This document shows, one piece after another, positions 15,995 to 26,125 of a DNA stretch of 32,906 nucleotides. Below the pieces are notes generated by a model. The model was not told the origin of the DNA and searched no databases. It saw only the letters and a list, made by a program, of their open reading frames with translations. Each line of letters opens with the position of its first letter. Within the stretch, counting starts at the first letter, position 1. A program made the translations under genes and the position numbers. Source of the DNA: an uncultured Gemmatimonadota bacterium (GTDB taxonomy: Bacteria > Gemmatimonadota > Gemmatimonadetes > Gemmatimonadales > Gemmatimonadaceae); the NCBI GenBank assembly GCA_946480295.1, contig CAMLIT010000038.1:1-32906 (forward strand), given 5' to 3'.

Positions 15995-16021
15995 GCCGCC
16001 GCGCGCCGCGGGCGCGCGACG

Positions 16022-16630
16022 CTACAGCGCGCGGCCGGCGAGCACGCGGCGCACGTCGGCCAGCCGCACGCCGATGGAGCGCAGCGCCGCGAGCGCGTGG
16101 TAGAACAGGTCGCCCGCCTCCTCCGCCGCGCGCTCGCGCTCCTCGTCGGCGATCGCGGTGACCAGCTCCGCGGTCTCCTCGCCGAGCTTCTTCAGCCGCA
16201 GGTTGCGGTCGCCGAGAAGCCGGCGCGTGTAGCTCGGCTTCGCGCCGGGCGCGTCCGGCGTGGTCGCGCGCCGCTCGATCGTCGCGTCGAGCTCGCCCAG
16301 GGCGTCGGCGCCGAGCGCGCCCTCGCCGAAGCAGGAAACGGCGCCCGTATGGCACGCGGGTCCCGCGGGGACGATGCGCGCGAGGACGGCATCGCCGTCG
16401 CAGTCGGCGGCGAGGGAGAGGACGCGCTGGGTGTTGCCGCTCGTCGCGCCCTTGTGCCAGAGGCCGCGCGTGCGTGAGCGGTAGTGCATCTCGCCGGTGG
16501 CGATCGTGCGCTCCAGCGCCTCGCGGTCGGCGTGCGCCACCATCAGCACGGCGCCAGTGAGCGCGTCCTGCGCGACGACGGTGACCAGACCACCGCCCTT
16601 GGCGAAATCGAGAGAATCCAGGTCGAGCAT
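16022..16630 (-). CDS. hisI: Bifunctional phosphoribosyl-AMP cyclohydrolase / phosphoribosyl-ATP pyrophosphatase HisIE
   Basis: Steps 2 and 3 of histidine synthesis in one 202-residue chain. The HisI domain (about 1-108) shows [24 protein letters not shown] with Cys77, and [10 protein letters not shown] with Cys93 and Cys100 as zinc ligands. The HisE domain (about 112-200) shows [16 protein letters not shown] and [14 protein letters not shown]. The start at 16630 lies 3 bp after the hisN stop, so it is the last gene of the his operon. Fusion of HisI with HisE is common in bacteria. Confidence 0.95.
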
Positions 16631-16633
16631 CGG

Positions 16634-17413
16634 CTATGTGGGAGAGGGGACGCCGAGGAGGTCGCGCACCGTGCCGGCGAGGACGGCATTCGTCGCCACC
16701 GCGCTGCCGCCGAATGCCGTCGGCGCGCCGGACCAGTCGGTGAAGACGCCGCCGGCTTCGACGATGAGCGGCATGAGCGCCGCGGAATCCCACGGCGACA
16801 GCACGGGATCCACCATCACCTCGGCGCGGCCGGTGGCGACGAGGAGATAGCCGTAGCAGTCGCCCCAGCTCCGGCTCACCGACGCCTCGCTCGCGAGTCG
16901 CCGCCAGCGCTCGCCGCGCAGCGGGTGCTCGCGGAAGCGCTCGTCGGTGGTGAGCACGGTGGCGCGGGTGACGTCGGCGAGCTGGGAGACGTGCGCGCGC
17001 GCGCCGTTCCACCAGCACCCCTGGCCTGGCGCCGCGGCGAGCATCTCGTCGAGCGCGGGGAAGAACGCGGCGCCGGCGACGACCGAGGTGCCCACGCAGA
17101 CGGCGACGAGCGTCCCCCACAGCGGCACGCCGCGCACGAAGGTCTTCGTGCCGTCGATGGGGTCGACGATCCACCGGCGCAGCGCGTCGGGCTGGTGGTC
17201 GCCGAGCTCCTCGCCGAGGATGCCGTCGCGTGGGAAGCGGTGCATGATCCACTCGCGCGCCGTCTGCTCGGCGGTGCGGTCGGCGACGGTGACGGGGGAG
17301 CCGTCGCGCTTCGCCTCGACGGCGAGATCGGAGCGGAAGTAGCGCATCGCCTGCGCGCCGGCGAGGCGCGCGACCTCCTCGACCGCCTCGAGCAGGAGCG
17401 CCTCGTCGCTCAC
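16634..17413 (-). CDS. hisN: Histidinol-phosphatase, inositol-monophosphatase type (HisN)
   Basis: The 259-residue product belongs to the Mg-dependent inositol-monophosphatase superfamily: DGSPVTVADRTAE, GEELG (67-71), WIVDPIDGTKTFVRG (81-95) and the late WDSAALMPLIVEAGG. HisB in this operon lacks a phosphatase domain and no PHP-type HisJ is present, so this gene is the natural candidate for dephosphorylating histidinol phosphate. The start is a GTG at 17411-17413 overlapping the hisF stop as GTGA. General IMPase activity cannot be excluded by sequence; operon position makes the histidinol-phosphatase call strong. Confidence 0.88.
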   Translation of the reverse strand: MSDEALLLEAVEEVARLAGAQAMRYFRSDLAVEAKRDGSPVTVADRTAEQTAREWIMHRFPRDGILGEELGDHQPDALRRWIVDPIDGTKTFVRGVPLWGTLVAVCVGTSVVAGAAFFPALDEMLAAAPGQGCWWNGARAHVSQLADVTRATVLTTDERFREHPLRGERWRRLASEASVSRSWGDCYGYLLVATGRAEVMVDPVLSPWDSAALMPLIVEAGGVFTDWSGAPTAFGGSAVATNAVLAGTVRDLLGVPSPT

Positions 17414-18174
17414 GCGCCGGTCCTCACGGGGATGCCGGCGCCGAGCATCTCGCCCTTGATCTCGCGCACGGTCGTGAGGCCGTCGTGCAGGATGCCGGCG
17501 ACGAGCGCCGCATCGGCGCCGGTCTCCTGGAGCACCTGCGGGATGTGGGCCGCCGTGCCCGCGCCGCCGGACGCGACGACGGGCACGTCCACCACGCCCG
17601 CGACGGCGCGCGTGAGCTCGAGGTCGTAGCCGGTACGCACGCCGTCCCGGTCGATGCTGGTGAGGAGGATCTCCCCCGCCCCGCGCCGCACGCACTCGCG
17701 CGCCCACGCGACGGCATCGAGGCCGGTCGGCTGCGTGCCCCCGCGGACGTACACCTCCCAGCCGCCGTCGCCACGTCGTTTGGCATCGATGCTCGCCACC
17801 ACGCACTGCGCGCCGAAGCGCGCCGCGGACTCCGTGAGCACCGCCGGCCGCGCCACCGCGGCGGAGTTGATGCTCACCTTGTCCGCGCCCGCGCGGAGGA
17901 CGCCGGCGACGTCGTCCGCGCTGCGGACGCCGCCGCCGATGGTCAGCGGGATGAAGAGCCGCTCGGCGGTGCGGCGCGCGACGTCGAGCAGCGTGCCGCG
18001 CTCCTCCGCGCTCGCCGAGATGTCGAGGAAGACCATCTCGTCGGCGCCCTCGCGCTCGTAGCGCTCCGCCAGCGCGACCGGATCGCCGACGTCGCGCAGC
18101 GACTCGAAGTGCACCCCCTTCACCACCCGTCCCCCCTTCACGTCGAGGCAGACGATCACACGACGGGTGAGCAT
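17410..18174 (-). CDS. hisF: Imidazole glycerol phosphate synthase cyclase subunit HisF
   Basis: HisF closes the imidazole ring using ammonia from HisH, yielding IGP and AICAR. The 254-residue beta/alpha barrel has [18 protein letters not shown] with Asp11, LTIGGGVRS, a phosphate-binding [11 protein letters not shown], the second catalytic Asp in VASIDAKR and [12 protein letters not shown] near the end. The ATG at 18172-18174 shares one base with the hisB stop. The position HisB-HisF-HisN in the operon fits. Confidence 0.96.
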
Positions 18175-18710
18175 CACTCCCCCTCGAGGACGACGGAGCC
18201 CTTCGTGCTGAACACGGCGCCCGTGTCCACCAGCGCGTCGCGCACGGCGAGGCCGAGCGCCTTGAACGCCGCCTCGACGACGTGGTGTCGATCGGTACCG
18301 CGCAGCACGCGCAGGTGCAGCGTGGCCTTCGCGTTGTCGGCGAAGGAGCGCATCCAGTGGTCGTAGAGCGAGCTGGGAAGCGGGCCGCGGTAGTACGGCC
18401 GGCCGCCGAGATCGAGCGCGCAGTGCACGAGCGCGTCGTCCATCGGGATCGTGCGGTCGCCGTAGCGCGCGGCCGTCGCGGGCAGGTAGCCGGCGAGCGC
18501 CGCGCCGACGGCGATCGCCACGTCCTCGATGAGGTGGTGCGGCAGGTCGCCGCGTCCGTTCACCACGACCCCCAGCCCCGCGTAGCGGGCGAAGGTCACG
18601 AGCATGTGGTCGAGGAACGGGATGCCGGTGTCGACCCGCGTCGCCCCCGCGTCGGCGAGCAGCTCGACCCGGACCTTCGTCTCCCTCGTCTCCCGCGTGA
18701 TGACGGTCAT
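18174..18710 (-). CDS. hisB: Imidazoleglycerol-phosphate dehydratase HisB (monofunctional)
   Basis: The 178-residue product dehydrates IGP to imidazole acetol phosphate. It shows the diagnostic metal-binding stretches: TGIPFLDHML (about 28-37), GDLPHHLIEDVAIAVGAAL and RGTDRHHVVEAAFKALGLAV, plus the opening TRETRETKVRVEL. It is slightly shorter than the typical 190-200 residues and lacks the N-terminal HAD-type phosphatase domain of enterobacterial HisB, in line with a separate hisN. The ATG at 18708-18710 overlaps the hisA stop as ATGA. Confidence 0.96.
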   Translation of the reverse strand: MTVITRETRETKVRVELLADAGATRVDTGIPFLDHMLVTFARYAGLGVVVNGRGDLPHHLIEDVAIAVGAALAGYLPATAARYGDRTIPMDDALVHCALDLGGRPYYRGPLPSSLYDHWMRSFADNAKATLHLRVLRGTDRHHVVEAAFKALGLAVRDALVDTGAVFSTKGSVVLEGE

Positions 18711-19420
18711 TCCGCGAACTCCTGCGCGACGGCGCGCGCATCGAGCGCGCCGGTGTAGAGTGCCATGCCGATGACGGCGCCGGCGACGCCGCGGTGCTCG
18801 AGCGCCCGCAGGTCGTTCATGCTCGACACGCCCCCCGACGCGATGACGGGAAAGCGCGACGCGTCCACCACGTCCTCCATGAGCGCGAGGTCGGTCCCGC
18901 GCATCTGCCCCTCGAGGTGCACCGCCGTGACGAGCAGCCCGCCGAGCGAGAGCGGGTTCAGCTCCTCGACGACGTCGAGGATGTCGAGCGGCAGCGTGCG
19001 CGCCCAGCCGCGCGTGACGATCTTCCGCTCGCGCACGTCGGCGGCGACGACGATCACGCCGGGATAGAGCGCGGCGAGGTCGGCGAGCCACTCCGCGTCC
19101 TCGAGCGCGCGCGTGCCGACGACGACGCGCGTGGCGCCGGCGCGGAAGAGCTGCTCGACGACCTCCGTGCGCCGGACGCCGCCGCCCACCTGCACGTCCA
19201 GGTGCGCCTCGCGCAGGATCTCCTCCACGACCGGGAGGTTCGAGCCGGCGCCGGTGGCGGCGTCGAGATCCACCACGTGCAGCCGGCGGAAGCCCGTCTG
19301 CTCCCAGTCGTGCGCCACGCTCACCGGATCGGGCAGCCGGATGCGCTCCTTCTCGTACGATCCGCCGACGAGCTGCACGCACGCGCCGTCGCGGAGGTCG
19401 ACCGCGGGGATGGCGATCAT
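18707..19420 (-). CDS. hisA: ProFAR isomerase HisA
   Basis: HisA isomerises the aminoaldose ProFAR to the ketose PRFAR. The 237-residue beta/alpha barrel has MIAIPAVDLRDGACVQLVGG with Asp8, VQVGGGVRRTEVVEQL, VVVGTRALED, the second catalytic Asp in TAVHLEGQMRGTDLAL and VIASGGVSSMNDL. PriA-type dual activity cannot be judged by eye. The ATG at 19418-19420 overlaps the hisH stop (ATGA). Confidence 0.95.
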   Translation of the reverse strand: MIAIPAVDLRDGACVQLVGGSYEKERIRLPDPVSVAHDWEQTGFRRLHVVDLDAATGAGSNLPVVEEILREAHLDVQVGGGVRRTEVVEQLFRAGATRVVVGTRALEDAEWLADLAALYPGVIVVAADVRERKIVTRGWARTLPLDILDVVEELNPLSLGGLLVTAVHLEGQMRGTDLALMEDVVDASRFPVIASGGVSSMNDLRALEHRGVAGAVIGMALYTGALDARAVAQEFAE

Positions 19421-20022
19421 CGCGCGCCTCCTCCCCCGCTGGCGAGGAATCCGCGCAGGAAGCGGACGCCCGCCGTCGAGCTCTTTTCCGGATGGAACTG
19501 CACGCCCACGGCGCTGCCGGCGCGGACGGCCGCCGCGAAGCGGTCGCTCTCGTGCTCGGTCCACGCGATCACGTACCGCTCCTCCGCCGGCCGGCAGACG
19601 AAGCTGTTCGCGTAGTAGGCGAGTCGGATCGGCGACGTCTCGAACAGCGGGTCGCGCACGTCGGTCAGGGTGTTCCAGCCGATCTGCGGGACGCGGACGG
19701 CGTCGAGCCGCGTCACGCGGCCAGGGATGATGCCGAGCCCCGCGCCCGGCCCCTCGTCGCTCTCGTCGAAGAGGAGCTGCATGCCGAGGCAGATGCCGAT
19801 CGTCGGCAGCCCGCCCCGGATCGCGGCGCGCATCGCGGCGCGGCCCGGCGCCAGCCGCTCGGCGGCGGCGGAGAAGGCGCCGACGCCAGGGAGGACGAGG
19901 ATGTCGGTGTCGACGGCGCGCTCCGGGTCGGGCTCGATGCGCACCTGCGCGCCCGGCACGTCCACCGCCTTCGCCAGCGAGTGCAGGTTGCCGGCGCCGT
20001 AGTCGAAGATCGTGACGATCAT
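19417..20022 (-). CDS. hisH: Imidazole glycerol phosphate synthase glutaminase subunit HisH
   Basis: HisH splits glutamine and feeds ammonia to HisF. The 201-residue class I amidotransferase has FDYGAGNLHSLAKAV, LPGVGAF, the nucleophile in GICLGMQLLFDES (Cys78) and the His177/Glu179 pair in VGVQFHPEKSS. The catalytic triad is intact. The ATG at 20020-20022 overlaps the hisC stop (ATGA). HisH and HisF are separated by hisA and hisB, so they are not fused or adjacent. Confidence 0.96.
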   Translation of the reverse strand: MIVTIFDYGAGNLHSLAKAVDVPGAQVRIEPDPERAVDTDILVLPGVGAFSAAAERLAPGRAAMRAAIRGGLPTIGICLGMQLLFDESDEGPGAGLGIIPGRVTRLDAVRVPQIGWNTLTDVRDPLFETSPIRLAYYANSFVCRPAEERYVIAWTEHESDRFAAAVRAGSAVGVQFHPEKSSTAGVRFLRGFLASGGGGAR

Positions 20023-21140
20023 CGCGCCGCCTCCGTGGCCAGCGCGGCGGCGAGCGCGTCGAGGCACGCCTGCATCATCGTCCACGGTCCGACGCCGATG
20101 CGGAGCCCCATCCCGTCGGCGGCCGCCAGCGCCGGCAGGTCCGTCGGCAGCTTGGTGTGCAGGCGCACGAGCACCCCCGCCTCGCAGAGCCGCGCGCTCA
20201 GCTCCGGCGCGCGGGGCGTGGGTACGAAGACGAAGTTCGCGTCCGACGGCAGTGGCTCGAGCCCGAGCGCGCGCAGCTCGCCGACGAGCCGGTCGCGCGT
20301 GTCGCGCGCCTGCGCCGCGTGCGCACGGACCCAGTCGAGCGCCTCCGGCCCCTCGTGCAGGACGGCGGTCGCCACGTGCTCGGCCACGACGTTCACCTTG
20401 TACGGCCCGCGCGCGCGCTCGACCAGCCCGATGAGGGCGCGGCTGCCGAGGCCGTAGCCGACGCGCAGCCCGGCGAGACCGAACGCCTTGGAGAAGGTGC
20501 GCGTCACGAGCAGCCGCTCCGACTGGTCGAGCAGGTCGGCGTGCGTGCGGGCCGCGAACTCCGCGTAGGCCTCGTCGAGGATGACGACGCCGGGCGCGTG
20601 CTCGACGACGTACTCGATCGCCGCACGCGACGCGGTCGTCGCCGTCGGATTGTTGGGCGCGCAGAGGTAGAGGATCTTCGCGCCGGTGGCGACGAGTCGT
20701 TCGGCGTCCACGTCGTAGTCGGGCGCGAGCGGGATCGCGACCGGCCGCAGCCCGTTGATCCGGGCGAAGGTCGGGATCATCGAGAAGGTCGGCGCCGAGA
20801 ACGCGATCGCGTCGCCGGGTGCGCCGAAGGCGCGCATCGCCGAGTCGAGGACGTCGTCGGAGCCGCAGCCGACGACGACGCCCGCGTCGGGCAGCCGGGC
20901 GTAGCGCCGGATCGCCTCCTGGAGCGACGCGCCGTAGAGCGACGGGTAGCGGGCGACGGCGCCCGCGGCGAGCTCGCCGAGCAGCCGCGCGACGACCGGG
21001 GGCGCCCCCCACAGGTTCGTGTTGTCGCTCAGGTCCACCGCGCACGCCGCCTGGTCCGGCGCGTAGAGCGGGAGCGCGCGCACCTCGGCGCGCGCCAGCT
21101 CGAACAGCGATGGCGGGACCGCGTCAGCGCGTGACGGCAT
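20019..21140 (-). CDS. hisC: Histidinol-phosphate aminotransferase HisC
   Basis: A 373-residue fold-type I PLP aminotransferase converting imidazole acetol phosphate to histidinol phosphate. Visible are the N-terminal VDLSDNTNLWGAPP, VVGCGSDDVLDSAMRAF, LCAPNNPTATT, VILDEAYAEF and the PLP lysine in TRTFSKAFGLAGLRVGYG. The start at 21140 lies inside the 3' end of hisD (17-bp overlap). Related aminotransferases (e.g. aromatic or cobalamin-type) look similar; the operon fixes the assignment. Confidence 0.94.
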   Translation of the reverse strand: MPSRADAVPPSLFELARAEVRALPLYAPDQAACAVDLSDNTNLWGAPPVVARLLGELAAGAVARYPSLYGASLQEAIRRYARLPDAGVVVGCGSDDVLDSAMRAFGAPGDAIAFSAPTFSMIPTFARINGLRPVAIPLAPDYDVDAERLVATGAKILYLCAPNNPTATTASRAAIEYVVEHAPGVVILDEAYAEFAARTHADLLDQSERLLVTRTFSKAFGLAGLRVGYGLGSRALIGLVERARGPYKVNVVAEHVATAVLHEGPEALDWVRAHAAQARDTRDRLVGELRALGLEPLPSDANFVFVPTPRAPELSARLCEAGVLVRLHTKLPTDLPALAAADGMGLRIGVGPWTMMQACLDALAAALATEAAR

Positions 21141-22485
21141 CGGCCGCGTCCTCCGTGCGCTTGGCGTCCCACGCGCGCGCCGCGCTGGCGTGGCCCGGGA
21201 GCGCCTCCGCGTCGGCGAAGGCGCCGACGTCGCCGGCCAGCGCCGACGCGGCGCGCGGGGAGACGCGCTGGTACGTCGTCCAGCGGAAGAAGTCGAGCAC
21301 GGACAGTCCGGAGTAGCAGCGCGCCAGGCCGCCGGTCGGCAGGACGTGGTTCGCGCCGGTCATGTAGTCGCCAAACGAGACGGACGCCGTCTCGCCGACG
21401 AAGATCGTACCCGCACCGCGCAGGCGCGGGAGCACCGCCTCGGCGGTGTCGAGCGCGAGCAGCAGGTGCTCGGCGGCGTACGCGTTCGCCATCTCCACCG
21501 CCTCGTCGAGCGTGTCGACCTGGAGGAGCCCGCCCTGGCCGGCGAGCGCGGCCTCGATGATCGCGCGCCGCGGCTGCGCCGGAAGCTGCCGCGCGAGCGC
21601 CGCGGCGATGCGCCGAGCCGGCTCCGCGCCCACGACGACGGCGACGACGCACGCGCGCGGATCGTGCTCCGCCTGCGCCAGCAGCTCCCGCGCGACGATC
21701 GCCGGATCCGAGCTGTCGTCGGCGACGACGAGCAGCTCGCTCGGGCCGGCCGGCGAGTCGATCGCCACGGCGCCAGACACCTGGAGCTTGGCCTCGGCGA
21801 CGTAGGCGTTGCCCGGTCCGACGATACGGTCGACGCGCGGGACGCTCTCCGTCCCGTACGCCATCGCCGCGACGGCGCCGGCGCCGCCCAACGCGAACAC
21901 GCGGTCCACGCCGGAGAGCTCCGCCGCGGCGAGGAGCACCTCGGAGGGCGCACCCTCCGGACCGGGGGGCGAGCAGAGCACGACCTCTCCCACCGCCGCC
22001 ACGCGCGCGGGCACCGCGCCCATGATCACGCTGCTCGGGTACGTCGCCCGGCCGCCCGGCGCGTACACGCCGACGCGGGCAAGCGGATCCGGCCGACGGC
22101 CGACGACGATCCCGGGTTCGGGCTCGGTCTCCATCGGCTGGGGGAGGAAGGCGCGGTGCACGGCGGCGACGTTCCGCACGGTGCGCTCCATCGCCCGCCG
22201 CAGCGCCGGGGCGGTCCGGTCGAGCGCGCGGCGCCATGCGTCACGCGGCACCTCCAGCGACTCGAGCTCCGCGCGGTCGAAGGTGCGCGCCAGCTCGCGG
22301 AGCGCGGCGTCCCCCTCGCGCCGCACGCGCGCGACGCTCGCCGCCGTCGCCTCGCGCCCCGCGGCGACGCTCGACGACGAGCGGTCGAGGAGCGCGGCGC
22401 GATCGGCGGCGCTCAGCGCCGCGGCCGGGCCACTGAAGCGGAGCCGCGGGGCCGACCCGGTGGCGGCGGCGGGGTCGGCGCTCAT
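21124..22485 (-). CDS. hisD: Histidinol dehydrogenase HisD
   Basis: HisD oxidises histidinol to histidine in two NAD-dependent steps using zinc. The 453-residue product contains RVGVYAPGGRATYPSSVIMGAVPARVA, ALGGAGAVAAMAYGTESVPRVDRIVGPGNAYV, the active-site LLAQAEHDPRA and AEHLLLALD, and SFGDYMTGANHVLPTGG near the end. Length and motif order are normal. The ATG at 22483-22485 overlaps the hisG stop as ATGA. Confidence 0.96.
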   Translation of the reverse strand: MSADPAAATGSAPRLRFSGPAAALSAADRAALLDRSSSSVAAGREATAASVARVRREGDAALRELARTFDRAELESLEVPRDAWRRALDRTAPALRRAMERTVRNVAAVHRAFLPQPMETEPEPGIVVGRRPDPLARVGVYAPGGRATYPSSVIMGAVPARVAAVGEVVLCSPPGPEGAPSEVLLAAAELSGVDRVFALGGAGAVAAMAYGTESVPRVDRIVGPGNAYVAEAKLQVSGAVAIDSPAGPSELLVVADDSSDPAIVARELLAQAEHDPRACVVAVVVGAEPARRIAAALARQLPAQPRRAIIEAALAGQGGLLQVDTLDEAVEMANAYAAEHLLLALDTAEAVLPRLRGAGTIFVGETASVSFGDYMTGANHVLPTGGLARCYSGLSVLDFFRWTTYQRVSPRAASALAGDVGAFADAEALPGHASAARAWDAKRTEDAADAVTR

Positions 22486-23366
22486 GGCATCAGCCTCTCG
22501 ATGCGCGTCACGAGGATCCCCTCCGCGCCAAGCGACTTCAGCTCGGCGATGGTGCGGTAGATGGTGGATGCATCCACCACGGCGTGCACGGCGACGTGCA
22601 CGCCGCCGTTCATGATGTCCACCACCGTCGGCCCGTTGAGCCCGGGGAGCACGCGGCGGATCTCGTCGAGCTTCGCCCGCGGCACGTTCGCCATGAGGTA
22701 GCGCTTCCCGCGCGCGCGCAGCACCGAATGGAGCGCCGTCACCAGCTCGTCCAGCGCGCGCCCCTTCTCCTGCAACGCCCCGTTGCCGTCGCGCTGCATG
22801 AGCGCGGGGCTCGTGACGAGCTGCGCGGTCGACGTGAGCACCGTCGTCACCTCGTGCAGGCCGTTGGTGCGCAGCGTGGAGCCGGTGGAGACGAGGTCGA
22901 CGATGATGTCGGCGATGCCGATGTGCGGCGCGATCTCGGCCGCGCCGGAGACGGGCACGATCTCGACGTCGCTCCGGTCGTTGCGGAGGAAGAAGCGCTC
23001 GGCGAGGCGGGGGAAAACCGTCGCCACGCGCGCCCGCGGCGGGATGTCGGCGACGGAGGCGATGCCGCTCTCGTCCTTGGCGGCGACGACGAGCCGGCAG
23101 CGGCCGAACTCGAGATCGGCGAGCACCTCCAGCGCGCGGTCGGATTCGGAGACGAGATCGAGCCCGGTGACGCCGGCGTCGGCGGCGCCGTCGGCGACGA
23201 ACTCGGGGATGTCCTGCGCGCGCACGAACAGCGCCTCGAAGATGCCGCCGAGCGACGCGGTGAGGGCGCGCTCGCTGCGCACCCGCACCTCGAGGCCGGC
23301 GTCGTTGAACAGCTCGCGCGCTTCCTCGGCGAGGCGTCCCTTGTTAGGCAGAGCGATGCGAAGCAT
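22482..23366 (-). CDS. hisG: ATP phosphoribosyltransferase HisG (long form)
   Basis: HisG performs the first, committed step: ATP plus PRPP to phosphoribosyl-ATP. The 294-residue product begins MLRIALPNKGRLAEEA, has GVTGLDLVSESD, the PRPP-binding VDLVSTGSTLRTNGL and a C-terminal regulatory domain (about 220-294, ending with the GGVHVAVHAVVDASTIYRTI segment). The C-terminal domain marks the hexameric long form, which binds histidine itself and needs no HisZ. The ATG at 23364-23366 has AGGA 5 nt upstream. Upstream the frame stays open, but the conserved start and the attenuator argue for this ATG. Confidence 0.96.
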   Translation of the reverse strand: MLRIALPNKGRLAEEARELFNDAGLEVRVRSERALTASLGGIFEALFVRAQDIPEFVADGAADAGVTGLDLVSESDRALEVLADLEFGRCRLVVAAKDESGIASVADIPPRARVATVFPRLAERFFLRNDRSDVEIVPVSGAAEIAPHIGIADIIVDLVSTGSTLRTNGLHEVTTVLTSTAQLVTSPALMQRDGNGALQEKGRALDELVTALHSVLRARGKRYLMANVPRAKLDEIRRVLPGLNGPTVVDIMNGGVHVAVHAVVDASTIYRTIAELKSLGAEGILVTRIERLMP

Positions 23367-23425
23367 GAAATCCTGAGCGAGAGCGTGGAGCGCAGGCGGC
23401 GGCGGCGACGTCCGGCGAGCGCAAC

Positions 23426-23454
23426 AAAAAGCGGCCCGTCGGGAGACGGGCCGC
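23426..23454 (-). terminator. Intrinsic terminator in the his leader (attenuator)
   Basis: Read on the minus strand: GCGGCCCGTC, loop TCCC, GACGGGCCGC, then TTTTTGTT. It is a perfect 10-bp stem with a 4-nt loop and a T-run, 39 nt after the leader-peptide stop and 60 nt before hisG. No gene lies just upstream that it could end, so it must act within the his transcript. An upstream leader segment (GACGGGTC, 23520-23527) can pair with its left arm GGCCCGTC (one G-U pair), giving an antiterminator. Confidence 0.85.
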
Positions 23455-23493
23455 GGCGCACACCTGCGTCGTTTCGAGAAGGCTGCCGAGCGG

Positions 23494-23577
23494 CTACCCG
23501 AACACGCGCATGTCGCCCCGACCCGTCGGGCCGTGGTGATGATGCGCATGGCGATGGGGGCGTGGCGCGCGCGGCAT
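23494..23577 (-). CDS. hisL: Histidine leader peptide of the his operon attenuator
   Basis: A 27-codon frame starting at the ATG 23575-23577 begins MPRAPRPHRHAHHHH and ends at TAG 23494-23496: six His codons within eight residues, four of them consecutive (CAT CAT CAC CAC). It is followed by an intrinsic terminator and then hisG. Within the leader, GCGCAT over the His codons can pair with ATGCGC near its end, enclosing CCCGAC/GTCGGG; this is the expected pause structure. Ribosome stalling on His codons when charged tRNA-His is scarce would free the antiterminator. No Shine-Dalgarno precedes the ATG; the promoter placement suggests a leaderless message. Confidence 0.85.
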   Translation of the reverse strand: MPRAPRPHRHAHHHHGPTGRGDMRVFG

Positions 23578-23583
23578 GGAGGA

Positions 23584-23613
23584 ATGCTAACGGGAGGGGG
23601 CGAGCCGGGTCAA
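23584..23613 (-). promoter_or_regulatory. Probable his operon promoter
   Basis: Minus strand: TTGACC at 23613-23608, an 18-bp spacer, TAGCAT at 23589-23584. A start 7 nt downstream of the -10 falls on the A of the hisL ATG (23577). The -35 hexamer equals that of the cspA promoter. Confidence 0.5.
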
Positions 23614-23629
23614 CGGTGGGGCGATCGCG

Positions 23630-23658
23630 TTGCGTTCGCCACGCCTTGTGAATACGTT
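23630..23658 (+). promoter_or_regulatory. Candidate promoter of the cupredoxin gene
   Basis: TTGCGT at 23630-23635, a 17-bp spacer and TACGTT at 23653-23658 would start transcription near 23665, giving a leader of about 66 nt. The -10 lies inside the palindrome at 23644-23665. Confidence 0.35.
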
Positions 23659-23665
23659 CACAAGG
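23644..23665. promoter_or_regulatory. Rex/CRP-type operator palindrome
   Basis: CCTTGTGAA, spacer TACG, TTCACAAGG: perfect 9-bp arms. The inner 18 bases, TTGTGAATACGTTCACAA (23646-23663), fit the Rex consensus TTGTGAAN4TTCACAA at every fixed position, and also fit the CRP core TGTGAN6TCACA. Rex senses NADH/NAD and commonly controls respiratory genes, which suits the cupredoxin gene 66 bp downstream. The site overlaps that gene's likely -10, pointing to repression. It is about 78 bp upstream of the his start site. Confidence 0.65.
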
Positions 23666-23730
23666 TTCGCGCGGAATCCCGCGCGGGCCAATTCCACCAA
23701 CTGCTAGGCTCTACTGGAGGCCTTTCAACG

Positions 23731-24264
23731 ATGCGGTTCTACGGTCTGGTGCTCGTCGCGAGCGCGGCGGTTCTCGCCGCCTGCGGCGGCGGTGACAAGG
23801 GCGCGGCGCAGACGGACACGGCGGCGGCTGCTCCGGCGGCGGCTCCCGCTCCGGGGGCGGCGGCCGGCGCGAGCACGGGCGCGAGCACGGCGGCTGCTCC
23901 GGCTGGCGCGGTCGCGCAGGCGCCCGCCACGGGCGCGACCCACGAAGTGAAGATGATCGGCGACGAGAAGGGCTACCGCTTCGAGCCGGCCAACCTGACG
24001 ATCAAGCAGGGCGACGCGGTCAAGTTCGTCATGGTCGCCGGCGGCCCGCACAACGTCGCCTTCGACAACGTCACCGGCCCCGCGCACGACCAGCTCTCCG
24101 CCAACATGGGTCCGAACCAGACGGGCGACCTCTCCAGCCCGATGCTGATGAACCCGAACGAGGCCTACACGATCTCGTTCGCCAAGGTCCCGCCGGGCAC
24201 GTACAACTACCACTGCACGCCCCACCTCGCGATGGGGATGAAGGGCACGATCACCGTCCAGTAA
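23731..24264 (+). CDS. Plastocyanin/pseudoazurin-like cupredoxin lipoprotein
   Basis: The 177-residue product is a small blue copper protein on a lipid anchor. MRFYGLVLVASAAVLAAC gives a lipobox with Cys18. An Ala/Gly/Pro/Thr-rich linker follows to about residue 70, then the cupredoxin domain (71-177). Type 1 copper ligands are His107 (GGPHNVAF), Cys162 and His165 in YHCTPH, and Met170 (GMKG), with plastocyanin-like C-x2-H-x4-M spacing. It is likely an envelope electron carrier. The ATG at 23731 follows GGAGG by 10 nt. It is divergent from the his operon, behind a Rex/CRP-type operator, and ends in its own terminator. Confidence 0.92.
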   Translation: MRFYGLVLVASAAVLAACGGGDKGAAQTDTAAAAPAAAPAPGAAAGASTGASTAAAPAGAVAQAPATGATHEVKMIGDEKGYRFEPANLTIKQGDAVKFVMVAGGPHNVAFDNVTGPAHDQLSANMGPNQTGDLSSPMLMNPNEAYTISFAKVPPGTYNYHCTPHLAMGMKGTITVQ

Positions 24265-24285
24265 CGGGCGATCGGTCGCGATACG

Positions 24286-24320
24286 ACGGAGCGGGGGCGC
24301 ATGCCTCCGCTCCGTTTGTC
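24286..24320 (+). terminator. Intrinsic terminator of the cupredoxin gene
   Basis: ACGGAGCGGGGGC (24286-24298), loop GCAT, GCCTCCGCTCCGT (24303-24315): a 13-bp stem with one G-T pair, followed by TTGTC. It begins 22 bp after the stop codon. Confidence 0.75.
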
Positions 24321-24394
24321 GCTCAGGGGGTGCCCCGCGCTGGCCCGGCCCCTGCTCCTTGCATCGGGCGAACGGCTCCCCGATACTCGCCAGG

Positions 24395-26125
24395 ATGACG
24401 ATGGTCACCTCCGAACACCGCCAGCACATCCCGCGGCCGGTCTGGATGTCCGCACGCGCCCGCAACGCGATGCGCCGGCCCGTCTTCATCGGGGCGGTGG
24501 GGGTCGGGACCTTCGTCACGGCGCTCGTGGCGATGGTCGTCATGCCGCAGTCGACCGAGCGCGCCGCGCAGGCCGTCGCGCCGAAGGCGTCGGAGTGGCC
24601 GGACACCGCGGCGCTCATCTCGGTGGTCGACACCGCCCGCGTGCACCTCGCCCGCGCGGACTCCGCGCTCGCCATCTCGCGGCAGCGCGCGCTCCTCATC
24701 GCGCAGGCGCCCCCCGACACCGTCGATTCCGCGCTCCAGGCGCGGCGCGACTCGCTCGACGCGAGCATCGCGGCGCTCAGTCGCCTGCTCACCCGCGCCG
24801 ACAACGCTCCCCTGCCCGCGTCCTATCGCGCGATCGCCGAAGCCCCGGCGCTCGCCGGCGATCCGCGGGTGAAGGCGCTCCTCGACTCGCTCGCCGAGAT
24901 CGACAAGGAGCGCGAGAGCGTCGGCGCGCTCGGCGGCGCCGACCCGACCTTCGTTGCCCTCACCACCCGGGCCACGGAGATCGGGCGCGAGATCCAGACC
25001 ATCGGGGCGACCAGGCGTGACGACATGCAGCGCACCCTGGCGACCCTCACGCCCGCCACGCCGCCGGCCAGCGGGGCGCAGATGGCCGCCGCCGACACGC
25101 TGACGCACACCGCGCAGCGCGACACCGCGCTCGCCGCGTACAGCGTCGCGACGGCCCAGCTCGCGCGCGCGCGCCAGAAGGCCGTGGTCCTCCAGCAGCG
25201 CGCCGACCGCGCGCGCGAGATCGCGACGACGAGCGCGCCGCCCCTCGCCCTCCTCGCCGCGGCGCTCGTCGTCGGCATCGTCCTCGGCTTCGGCGTCGCC
25301 CTCGCCGCCGAGATCCGCCGGCCGCGCATCGCCGACGAGCACGAGACCGAGTGGGCGGCCGGCGCTCGCGTCCTCGCGTCGGTGAGGCCCCAGCCGCCCG
25401 CGCCCGAACGCGCCCGGCGCTCCGCCGATCGCGCCGCCCCGCCGTACATCGATCCGGCGTCGGACGCGTACCAGCTCGTCTACCTCGCCGTCGCGACCGC
25501 GGGTGCGAACCTGCTGATGCTGACCGTGACGGGCAGCGAGCCGGCGATCAACGCCATCGTCGCCGTCAACTTCGCCGCGATCGCCGCTGAGGAGGCGCGC
25601 AACGTCCTCGTCATCGACACCGACGTCGCGACGTCGTCCGTCGCGTCGGCGCTCCGGCTGCACGCCGACCCCGGCCTCGTCGAGGTGCTCGACGGGCGCG
25701 CGGAGTGGCCGGAGGCGACCGTCCAGGCGACCGTTGGCCGCGACCGCACCATCGACGTCGTGCCGAGCGGCACGGGCCAGCCGCTGCCGGCCGCCGGCGA
25801 GATCACCGCGCTCCTGCGCCGCGACATCACGCGGCTCGCGCGGCACTACGACGCGATCATCGTCGTCGCGCCGATCGACCTGGCCACCGAGGGGCTGCCC
25901 GGCGCGCTGCCGATCGGCGACGCGGTCTACTGCGCGCGCCTCGGCTACACGCGCGTCAACGCGCTGCGCCGGGGGATGGTCGGACTCCGGCAGGCCGGGG
26001 GCAATCCCGTCGGCGTGGTGCTGTGGGACGCCGAGCCGCCGGTGCTGCTCACCCCCGAGGAGCTGGCCGCCGGACCGCGGCCGTGGCGCACGTCGGAGAT
26101 GCCGGTCGCGGGCGCGACTCGTTAA
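24395..26125 (+). CDS. Wzc/BY-kinase-like membrane protein with degenerate P-loop
   Basis: The 576-residue product has the plan of a polysaccharide co-polymerase/BY-kinase: TM1 at about 29-50, a long charged helical periplasmic part (about 70-275, likely coiled-coil), TM2 at 282-306, then a cytoplasmic ParA/BY-kinase-like domain. In that domain Walker A' (ARNVLVIDTDVATSSVASAL, 401-420) and a Walker B-like HYDAIIVVAP (484-493) are clear, but the P-loop position reads TGSEPAINAIVAVNFA, with neither the GK nor the following S/T. ATP hydrolysis or tyrosine kinase activity is therefore doubtful. No Tyr-rich tail is present. No polysaccharide genes are nearby. Start: ATG 24395; a TTG at 24359 is less likely. 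Confidence 0.8.
   Translation: MTMVTSEHRQHIPRPVWMSARARNAMRRPVFIGAVGVGTFVTALVAMVVMPQSTERAAQAVAPKASEWPDTAALISVVDTARVHLARADSALAISRQRALLIAQAPPDTVDSALQARRDSLDASIAALSRLLTRADNAPLPASYRAIAEAPALAGDPRVKALLDSLAEIDKERESVGALGGADPTFVALTTRATEIGREIQTIGATRRDDMQRTLATLTPATPPASGAQMAAADTLTHTAQRDTALAAYSVATAQLARARQKAVVLQQRADRAREIATTSAPPLALLAAALVVGIVLGFGVALAAEIRRPRIADEHETEWAAGARVLASVRPQPPAPERARRSADRAAPPYIDPASDAYQLVYLAVATAGANLLMLTVTGSEPAINAIVAVNFAAIAAEEARNVLVIDTDVATSSVASALRLHADPGLVEVLDGRAEWPEATVQATVGRDRTIDVVPSGTGQPLPAAGEITALLRRDITRLARHYDAIIVVAPIDLATEGLPGALPIGDAVYCARLGYTRVNALRRGMVGLRQAGGNPVGVVLWDAEPPVLLTPEELAAGPRPWRTSEMPVAGATR

Follow-up and report, generated by a model that had tools for sequence, protein, structure and literature searches.

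What controls the his operon in this stretch of DNA? The window, by which we mean the whole 32,906-nucleotide stretch analyzed, carries on its minus strand a short His-rich open reading frame (ORF) and a hairpin with a T-run, followed by hisG. On the basis of the sequence, we consider it very probable that this element acts as a ribosome-mediated transcription attenuator of the his operon, a judgment that concerns attenuation as such. The genes downstream are as follows.

22482..23366, minus strand: hisG, long form with C-terminal domain, ATG at 23366
21124..22485, minus strand: hisD
20019..21140, minus strand: hisC (best match, under its curated cut-off)
19417..20034, minus strand: hisH
18707..19429, minus strand: hisA, approximate start
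18174..18710, minus strand: hisB (IGPD domain), approximate start
17410..18177, minus strand: hisF, approximate start
16634..17413, minus strand: inositol-monophosphatase-family gene, perhaps the histidinol-phosphate phosphatase (inferred)
16022..16633, minus strand: hisIE

A preliminary description of this DNA had spoken of a full his operon. The genes hisG-D-C-H-A-B-F-IE were indeed found, but they make up the whole pathway only if the inositol-monophosphatase-family gene encodes the histidinol-phosphate phosphatase. The order hisG-D-C-H-A was the same in all 44 loci longer than 10 kb (from Gemmatimonadota, Myxococcota and Eisenbacteria, plus a few records with other titles; hisB was left out of the comparison), with hisF downstream of these genes in 43 and its place unclear in L038.

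Does the short ORF have the makings of a histidine sensor? Its features are the following.

23494..23577, minus strand: His leader peptide ORF, 27 codons plus stop, from ATG 23577 to a stop ending at 23494; peptide MPRAPRPHRHAHHHHGPTGRGDMRVFG
23533..23556, minus strand: His codons (codons 8, 10 and 12-15)

Residues 8 to 15 read HRHAHHHH, six His in eight with four of them consecutive, and the 27-codon leader of the preliminary description was thus borne out from the minus-strand sequence. Tandem codons for the operon's own amino acid, the leader feature of the attenuator class, are present. We then asked about chance. In a test set of 80 hisG loci and the window (1.68 Mb over both strands), ATG ORFs of 10 to 70 codons with at least five His in eight residues numbered 47, with 46 upstream of hisG versus 1 elsewhere. 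The His-rich ORF upstream of hisG exceeds chance. Two observations concern the annotation of this region. The hisG frame is open back to an ATG at 23549, within the His-codon region (22482-23549, minus strand), and a gene caller might add 61 false residues to HisG from this ATG, masking the attenuator. A divergent gene with a plastocyanin/cupredoxin domain lies at 23533-24264 on the plus strand; its longest ORF overlaps the His leader on the opposite strand, and its true start is probably the in-frame ATG at 23731, the beginning, by eye, of a lipoprotein-like signal.

Is the leader conserved? We collected 80 related hisG loci as the best 80 matches, a sample therefore tilted toward close relatives, in which L001 and L008 are cut too near hisG. 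The nearest relatives among these matches were Gemmatimonadaceae metagenome-assembled genomes (MAGs), at most 76% identical in hisG. The preliminary description had named loss of the leader frame or of its His codons in relatives as grounds for doubt; instead, 77 of the 78 related loci with enough upstream sequence have kept, no more than 500 nt ahead of hisG, a short ORF in which eight residues include four or more His. The exception, L078, reads HHHAHAHH and then runs into bases masked by N. A second sample comprised 61 Gemmatimonadota genomes, 49 of them with hisG above the cut-off. The leader was found in 22 of the best-scoring 30 of these 49 loci, and in all 22 the hisG was at least 61% identical to that of the window. 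Eight loci had no leader (L187, L189 and L196-L201); six of these carry a hisG 42-45% identical to the window's, and L187 and L189 one of 55 and 60%. The remaining 19 genomes score lower, and the share of the whole phylum with a leader is probably below 22/30. In L198, L200 and L201, the ORF before the distant-type hisG resembles hisZ by eye.

To follow the element as an RNA, we built a covariance model from alignment A1 and counted matches at E≤0.001. The model matched 129 of 346 Gemmatimonadota (a sample from a larger group, some aromatic leaders being among the matches), 70 of 195 Myxococcota and 7 of 47 genomes in the phylum of L015's genome, titled Candidatus Eisenbacteria. Strict filters and the few candidates scored per genome lose weak matches from these counts; conversely, at least some of the weak matches that were counted are aromatic leaders. 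A His leader preceded hisG in all 71 best-scoring matches (L081-L151). Myxococcus xanthus AM003 (L058) carries the attenuator. One contig (C210 of G340) has two similar His leaders about 9.5 kb apart (L153 and L154), one ahead of hisG and the other ahead of a hisC-like aminotransferase; the his operon there is apparently split and carries two attenuators.

By sequence, HisG places the window among Gemmatimonadota, beside the Gemmatimonadaceae MAG L014 (support 86/89). One clade of the HisG tree held 19 Myxococcota rows together with one titled Comamonas, and the Myxococcaceae MAG L072 was placed elsewhere. The forks between groups were poorly resolved, and both transfer and shared ancestry are thus compatible with the tree. 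Two records in it, L046 (titled Comamonas, with a Myxococcus-like his operon) and L040 (titled Kuenenia, with a Gemmatimonadota-like one), are probably mislabelled or mixed assemblies.

Where would transcription of the leader start? The window holds one candidate promoter.

23608..23613, minus strand: -35 element TTGACC, part of the only promoter-like site on either strand in 16000-25500 (mean in shuffles, 0.1)
23584..23589, minus strand: -10 element TAGCAT, ending 6 nt before the leader ATG

The spacer between the two elements is 18 nt (TTGACC-18-TAGCAT). The usual distance from a -10 element to the transcription start is 6 to 8 nt, and from the position of this -10 element the mRNA would therefore begin at the leader start codon or a few nucleotides from it, with A23577 or a base within a few nucleotides as the predicted start. 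Is this arrangement general? In the window and in 78 relatives, we scanned a region reaching 250 nt upstream and 100 nt downstream, ignoring the start codon. No promoter was found in 11 of the 79 loci. Among the 68 with any site, the best promoter lay 2-12 nt before the leader start in 62 (ties counted) and elsewhere in 6; counting only loci with a unique best promoter, 53 of 58 fell in that interval. The TTGAC/TANNNT promoter usually ends 5-11 nt upstream of the leader start codon, a position kept in loci of two phyla. Shine-Dalgarno-like words at the leader starts occurred in only 2 of 79 loci, both within a TAGGAT -10 element. A promoter 5-11 nt before the start codon, with no Shine-Dalgarno sequence, suggests that the leader mRNA is leaderless, and on these two grounds we hold this to be likely, with good confidence.

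The leader could instead be translated behind an ordinary 5' UTR made from an unseen upstream promoter, which would leave the attenuator as it is and make only the leaderless part wrong. The promoters are, after all, consensus matches only, with the 11 siteless loci and 6 displaced best sites given above, and the gaps of 9-12 nt seen in 27 of 79 loci (in a scan restricted to gaps of 2-12) would imply a 5' UTR of a few nucleotides. An ordinary UTR nonetheless seems improbable to us, given that TTGAC/TANNNT holds its position before the start codon in two phyla and that no Shine-Dalgarno sequence is kept.

We next consider the hairpins of the putative leaderless attenuator.

23431..23454, minus strand: terminator hairpin of 10 bp, GCGGCCCGTC-TCCC-GACGGGCCGC, 9 G-C pairs
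23426..23430, minus strand: terminator T-run, TTTTT
23542..23550, minus strand: strand 1 of hairpin 1:2, CATGCGCAT, over the His codons
23503..23511, minus strand: strand 2 of hairpin 1:2, ATGCGCGTG, complementary to CATGCGCAT
23520..23532, minus strand: inner hairpin within 1:2, GGCCC-GAC-GGGTC

The terminator stem begins 39 nt past the leader stop and is followed by hisG, as the preliminary description had it. By sequence, then, an intrinsic terminator of the kind that defines the attenuator class is present between the leader and the first gene. No second terminator-like site occurs in 9.5 kb, but shuffled sequences average 1.1 and the lone match is hence not significant by itself. Conservation is more telling: a terminator was present in 77 of 79 loci (the window and 78 others), ending 20-124 nt ahead of the hisG match, and its stem sequence GGCCCGTCC/GGACGGGCC is largely retained across phyla. 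Helix statistics were computed on a 58-sequence alignment with 500 shuffles; the shuffles leave relatedness in and the window itself served as the source of the helices, so that shuffle figures for helices are not probabilities. Terminator cells were paired in 94.4%, with covariation above all 500 shuffles. The outer helix of hairpin 1:2 had changes on both sides at 7 of its 9 pairs, and for hairpin 1:2 with its inner hairpin the paired cells were reached by 0 of 500 shuffles and the covariation score by 1 of 500. We rejected unusual fold stability as evidence, the leader's fold energy being ordinary for its composition (z -0.72). The evidence for the attenuator is conservation, not stability.

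Could the leader act without an intrinsic terminator, through Rho or by hiding the ribosome site of hisG? Translational versions of attenuators are known, according to passages of PMC9413887. The GC-rich covarying stem with its T-run in 77 of 79 loci, ending 20-124 nt before the hisG match, speaks for transcription termination, and we regard action through Rho or translational attenuation as very unlikely.

Transcription attenuation also calls for an alternative to the terminator. Its candidate strands are the following.

23520..23527, minus strand: antiterminator strand, GACGGGTC
23445..23452, minus strand: antiterminator partner, GGCCCGTC, shared with the 5' arm of the terminator

Pairing GACGGGTC (23527-23520) with GGCCCGTC (23452-23445) gives 7 Watson-Crick pairs and 1 G-U pair. 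The three alternative pairings proposed at the outset (over the His codons, between 23520-23527 and the terminator arm, and in the terminator) are all present in the window sequence. In the 58-sequence alignment, antiterminator cells were paired in 82.3%, compared to 30-49% when slid. Covariation of the antiterminator within the His family was not above shuffles (40 and 83 of 500 reach it), and both of its arms vary little. Support for the antiterminator comes from the retention of GGCCCGTCC/GGACGGGCC across phyla, which the terminator alone does not need. The reading frame of the segment points the same way. The GGG of the antiterminator strand stands in codon phase 2 in 47, phase 0 in 20 and phase 1 in 5 of 77 leaders, 5 not being placed; the segment is read as GPTGRG in many Gemmatimonadota and as PDG or HDG in most Myxococcaceae. 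Its persistence across codon phases suggests that the RNA, not the peptide, is conserved, and we rejected conservation of GPTGRG at the peptide level for the same reason.

Can the antiterminator form when a ribosome stalls? We folded nascent leaders, masking all of the RNA as far as 15 nt beyond the first His codon. In this state, 58 of 58 leaders, compared to 42% of shuffled controls, had 60% or more of the terminator 5' arm sequestered. When a ribosome was placed on the first His codons of the nascent window RNA, the fold was one long antiterminator, GACGGGTC to GGCCCGTC, continuing through ATGCGCGTG. The other states were not set cleanly apart from the stalled one: the same mark of 60% or more was reached in 36 of 58 leaders when the ribosome stood on the stop codon and in 26 of 58 when no ribosome was present. 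In full-length window RNA, the terminator was retained in 5 of 6 stalled folds, and timing during transcription must thus decide. In these models the antiterminator can form, and equilibrium folding separated the stalled from the terminating state only in part.

How might the element work? A ribosome would initiate on the 5'-terminal AUG of the leader. When charged tRNA-His is plentiful, it would reach the stop codon and shield strand 2, and the terminator would form. When His is scarce, it would stall on the His codons and cover strand 1. The stretch running from GACGGGTC to ATGCGCGTG, now free, could then pair with the segment up to GGCCCGTC, no terminator would form, and hisG-D-C-H-A-B-F-IE would be transcribed. 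If the leader were not translated at all, formation of hairpin 1:2 could leave the terminator free, which is the least supported step.

Is the design confined to histidine? Weak second matches of the model proved to be Tyr/Phe-rich leaders of the same RNA design (L152, L155-L160 and L167). Leaders such as MTSRASFYYGFYIYGFTLTGRGRSRTRE precede DAHP synthase in L157 (by Pfam) and in L158 and L167 (by eye, from the protein start); Tyr-rich leaders precede a biopterin-dependent aromatic amino acid hydroxylase in L152, L156, L159 and L160 (by Pfam); and L155 is counted among the eight with its downstream gene left without assignment. A TTGAC-like/TANNNT promoter stands at a leaderless distance in 6 of the 8 (L155, L157-L160 and L167, by eye). 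All eight share an ACGGG segment, and the GGCCCGTG terminator arm is found by pattern in 7. These leaders bear on the antiterminator. By pattern, the strand reads CACGGG in 7 of the 8 and the terminator arm CCCGTG in 7; in the His leaders, G faces C in 45 of 77, and the simple pattern fails in 32 of 77, with C facing C in 11 of those. The partners differ together in the related Tyr/Phe leaders, and this putative compensated base-pair swap supports the antiterminator.

Among 30 DAHP synthase loci, 13 had a leader holding three or more Phe/Tyr within eight residues and 17 had none; 7 of the 13 leaders have a promoter at a leaderless distance. Those of L265, L267, L272, L280 and L281 also carry Trp codons (e.g., YSWYWY), and such leaders may sense all three aromatic amino acids. 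Tyr control of the hydroxylase would be sensible if the enzyme makes Tyr from Phe. A search for leaderless attenuators before leuA and ilvB gave two weak candidates in 30 leuA loci and none in 30 ilvB loci; these genes may be operon-internal, and the scan is no disproof.

Might the ORF encode a functional His-rich, metal-binding peptide instead of a sensor? His-rich peptides can bind metals, and a cupredoxin-domain gene lies divergently next door. Three findings make such a peptide extremely unlikely: the conserved segment that follows the His residues (GPTGRG in many) survives elsewhere at the RNA level in different reading frames; the ORF lies upstream of hisG and, in one split operon, of hisC too; and related leaders in which Tyr/Phe replace His precede aromatic genes. 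Returning to the attenuator, one ancestral leaderless RNA may have been reused in Gemmatimonadota for several amino acids, with the sensed codons swapped and antiterminator and terminator changed together, the His version, together with the order of the his genes, being common to Gemmatimonadota and Myxococcota. We give this reading an even chance. It would cover leaders with His codons upstream of hisG and of a separate hisC-like operon, leaders rich in Tyr/Phe/Trp upstream of DAHP synthase, and leaders with Tyr codons upstream of the phenylalanine-hydroxylase-type gene. If it is true, Tyr attenuation of phenylalanine hydroxylase would be a new attenuation target, none having appeared among the matches listed.

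How does this element compare with known systems? It had been described at first as lying outside the groups where such attenuation is known. This was a fair statement: the window had no match to the Rfam His_leader family (RF00514; gathering threshold, 49 bits) at gathering or at E≤5, nor did any of the 12 related loci tried match at gathering, while Escherichia coli as the control scored 131.6 bits. Among the matches listed in a literature search that left subscription journals mostly outside, there was no report of such an attenuator in Gemmatimonadota or Myxococcota. A T-box riboswitch was rejected, the window having no Rfam match at gathering.

The gammaproteobacterial his leader (E. coli hisL) likewise has a leader ORF with His codons and hisG as the first gene, and passages of PMC9413887 and PMC3896937 give it a terminator and alternative hairpins as in the window. 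Model R1 aligns to E. coli hisL over its full length but weakly (18.4 bits, E 0.009). Unlike that leader, the window's family is probably leaderless and has its own antiterminator/terminator sequence, common to several phyla. In Firmicutes, His attenuators have been predicted in the Bacillus cereus group, Peptostreptococcaceae and Erysipelotrichales, and as described in passages of PMC9413887 they resemble the window in having three to five consecutive His codons, a terminator and an antiterminator. They belong to another phylum, and the word stem "gemmatimon" does not occur in PMC9413887. A 2010 survey, in its excerpted text, names no leader-peptide system outside Proteobacteria and Actinobacteria except ermC and the survey's own His leader in bacilli (PMC2965389). 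Leaderless attenuation is not a new principle: excerpts describe leaderless leader peptides with ribosome-mediated attenuation for trpL1, leuL and ilvL of Streptomyces lividans (PMC8079986) and for rnTrpL of Sinorhizobium meliloti (PMC7298713). Those systems differ in serving Trp, Leu and branched-chain amino acids in other phyla, and no His leader was found in the excerpts; a leaderless His attenuator was not found reported.

For the aromatic relatives, the comparison, drawn by title only, is with attenuation in aromatic amino acid biosynthesis in Corynebacterium glutamicum. An aromatic attenuator was reportedly described there by Neshat in 2014. The Gemmatimonadota aromatic leaders have RNA segments in common with the His attenuator and are found before aromatic amino acid hydroxylase genes as well.

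Our results add a conserved attenuator RNA family that had no Rfam 15 match in the loci tested and that occurs in two phyla as well as in some genomes of a third. Beyond the preliminary description go the probable leaderless start, the second phylum and the aromatic relatives. The results predict histidine sensing through leaderless translation in myxobacteria and Gemmatimonadota, and the aromatic relatives point to a natural series, with a single RNA scaffold retuned to different amino acids. Most likely, the element works by the classical mechanism known from enteric his operons and belongs to a new RNA family, in groups for which no report was found; its less ordinary features are the probable leaderless start and the reusable RNA scaffold.
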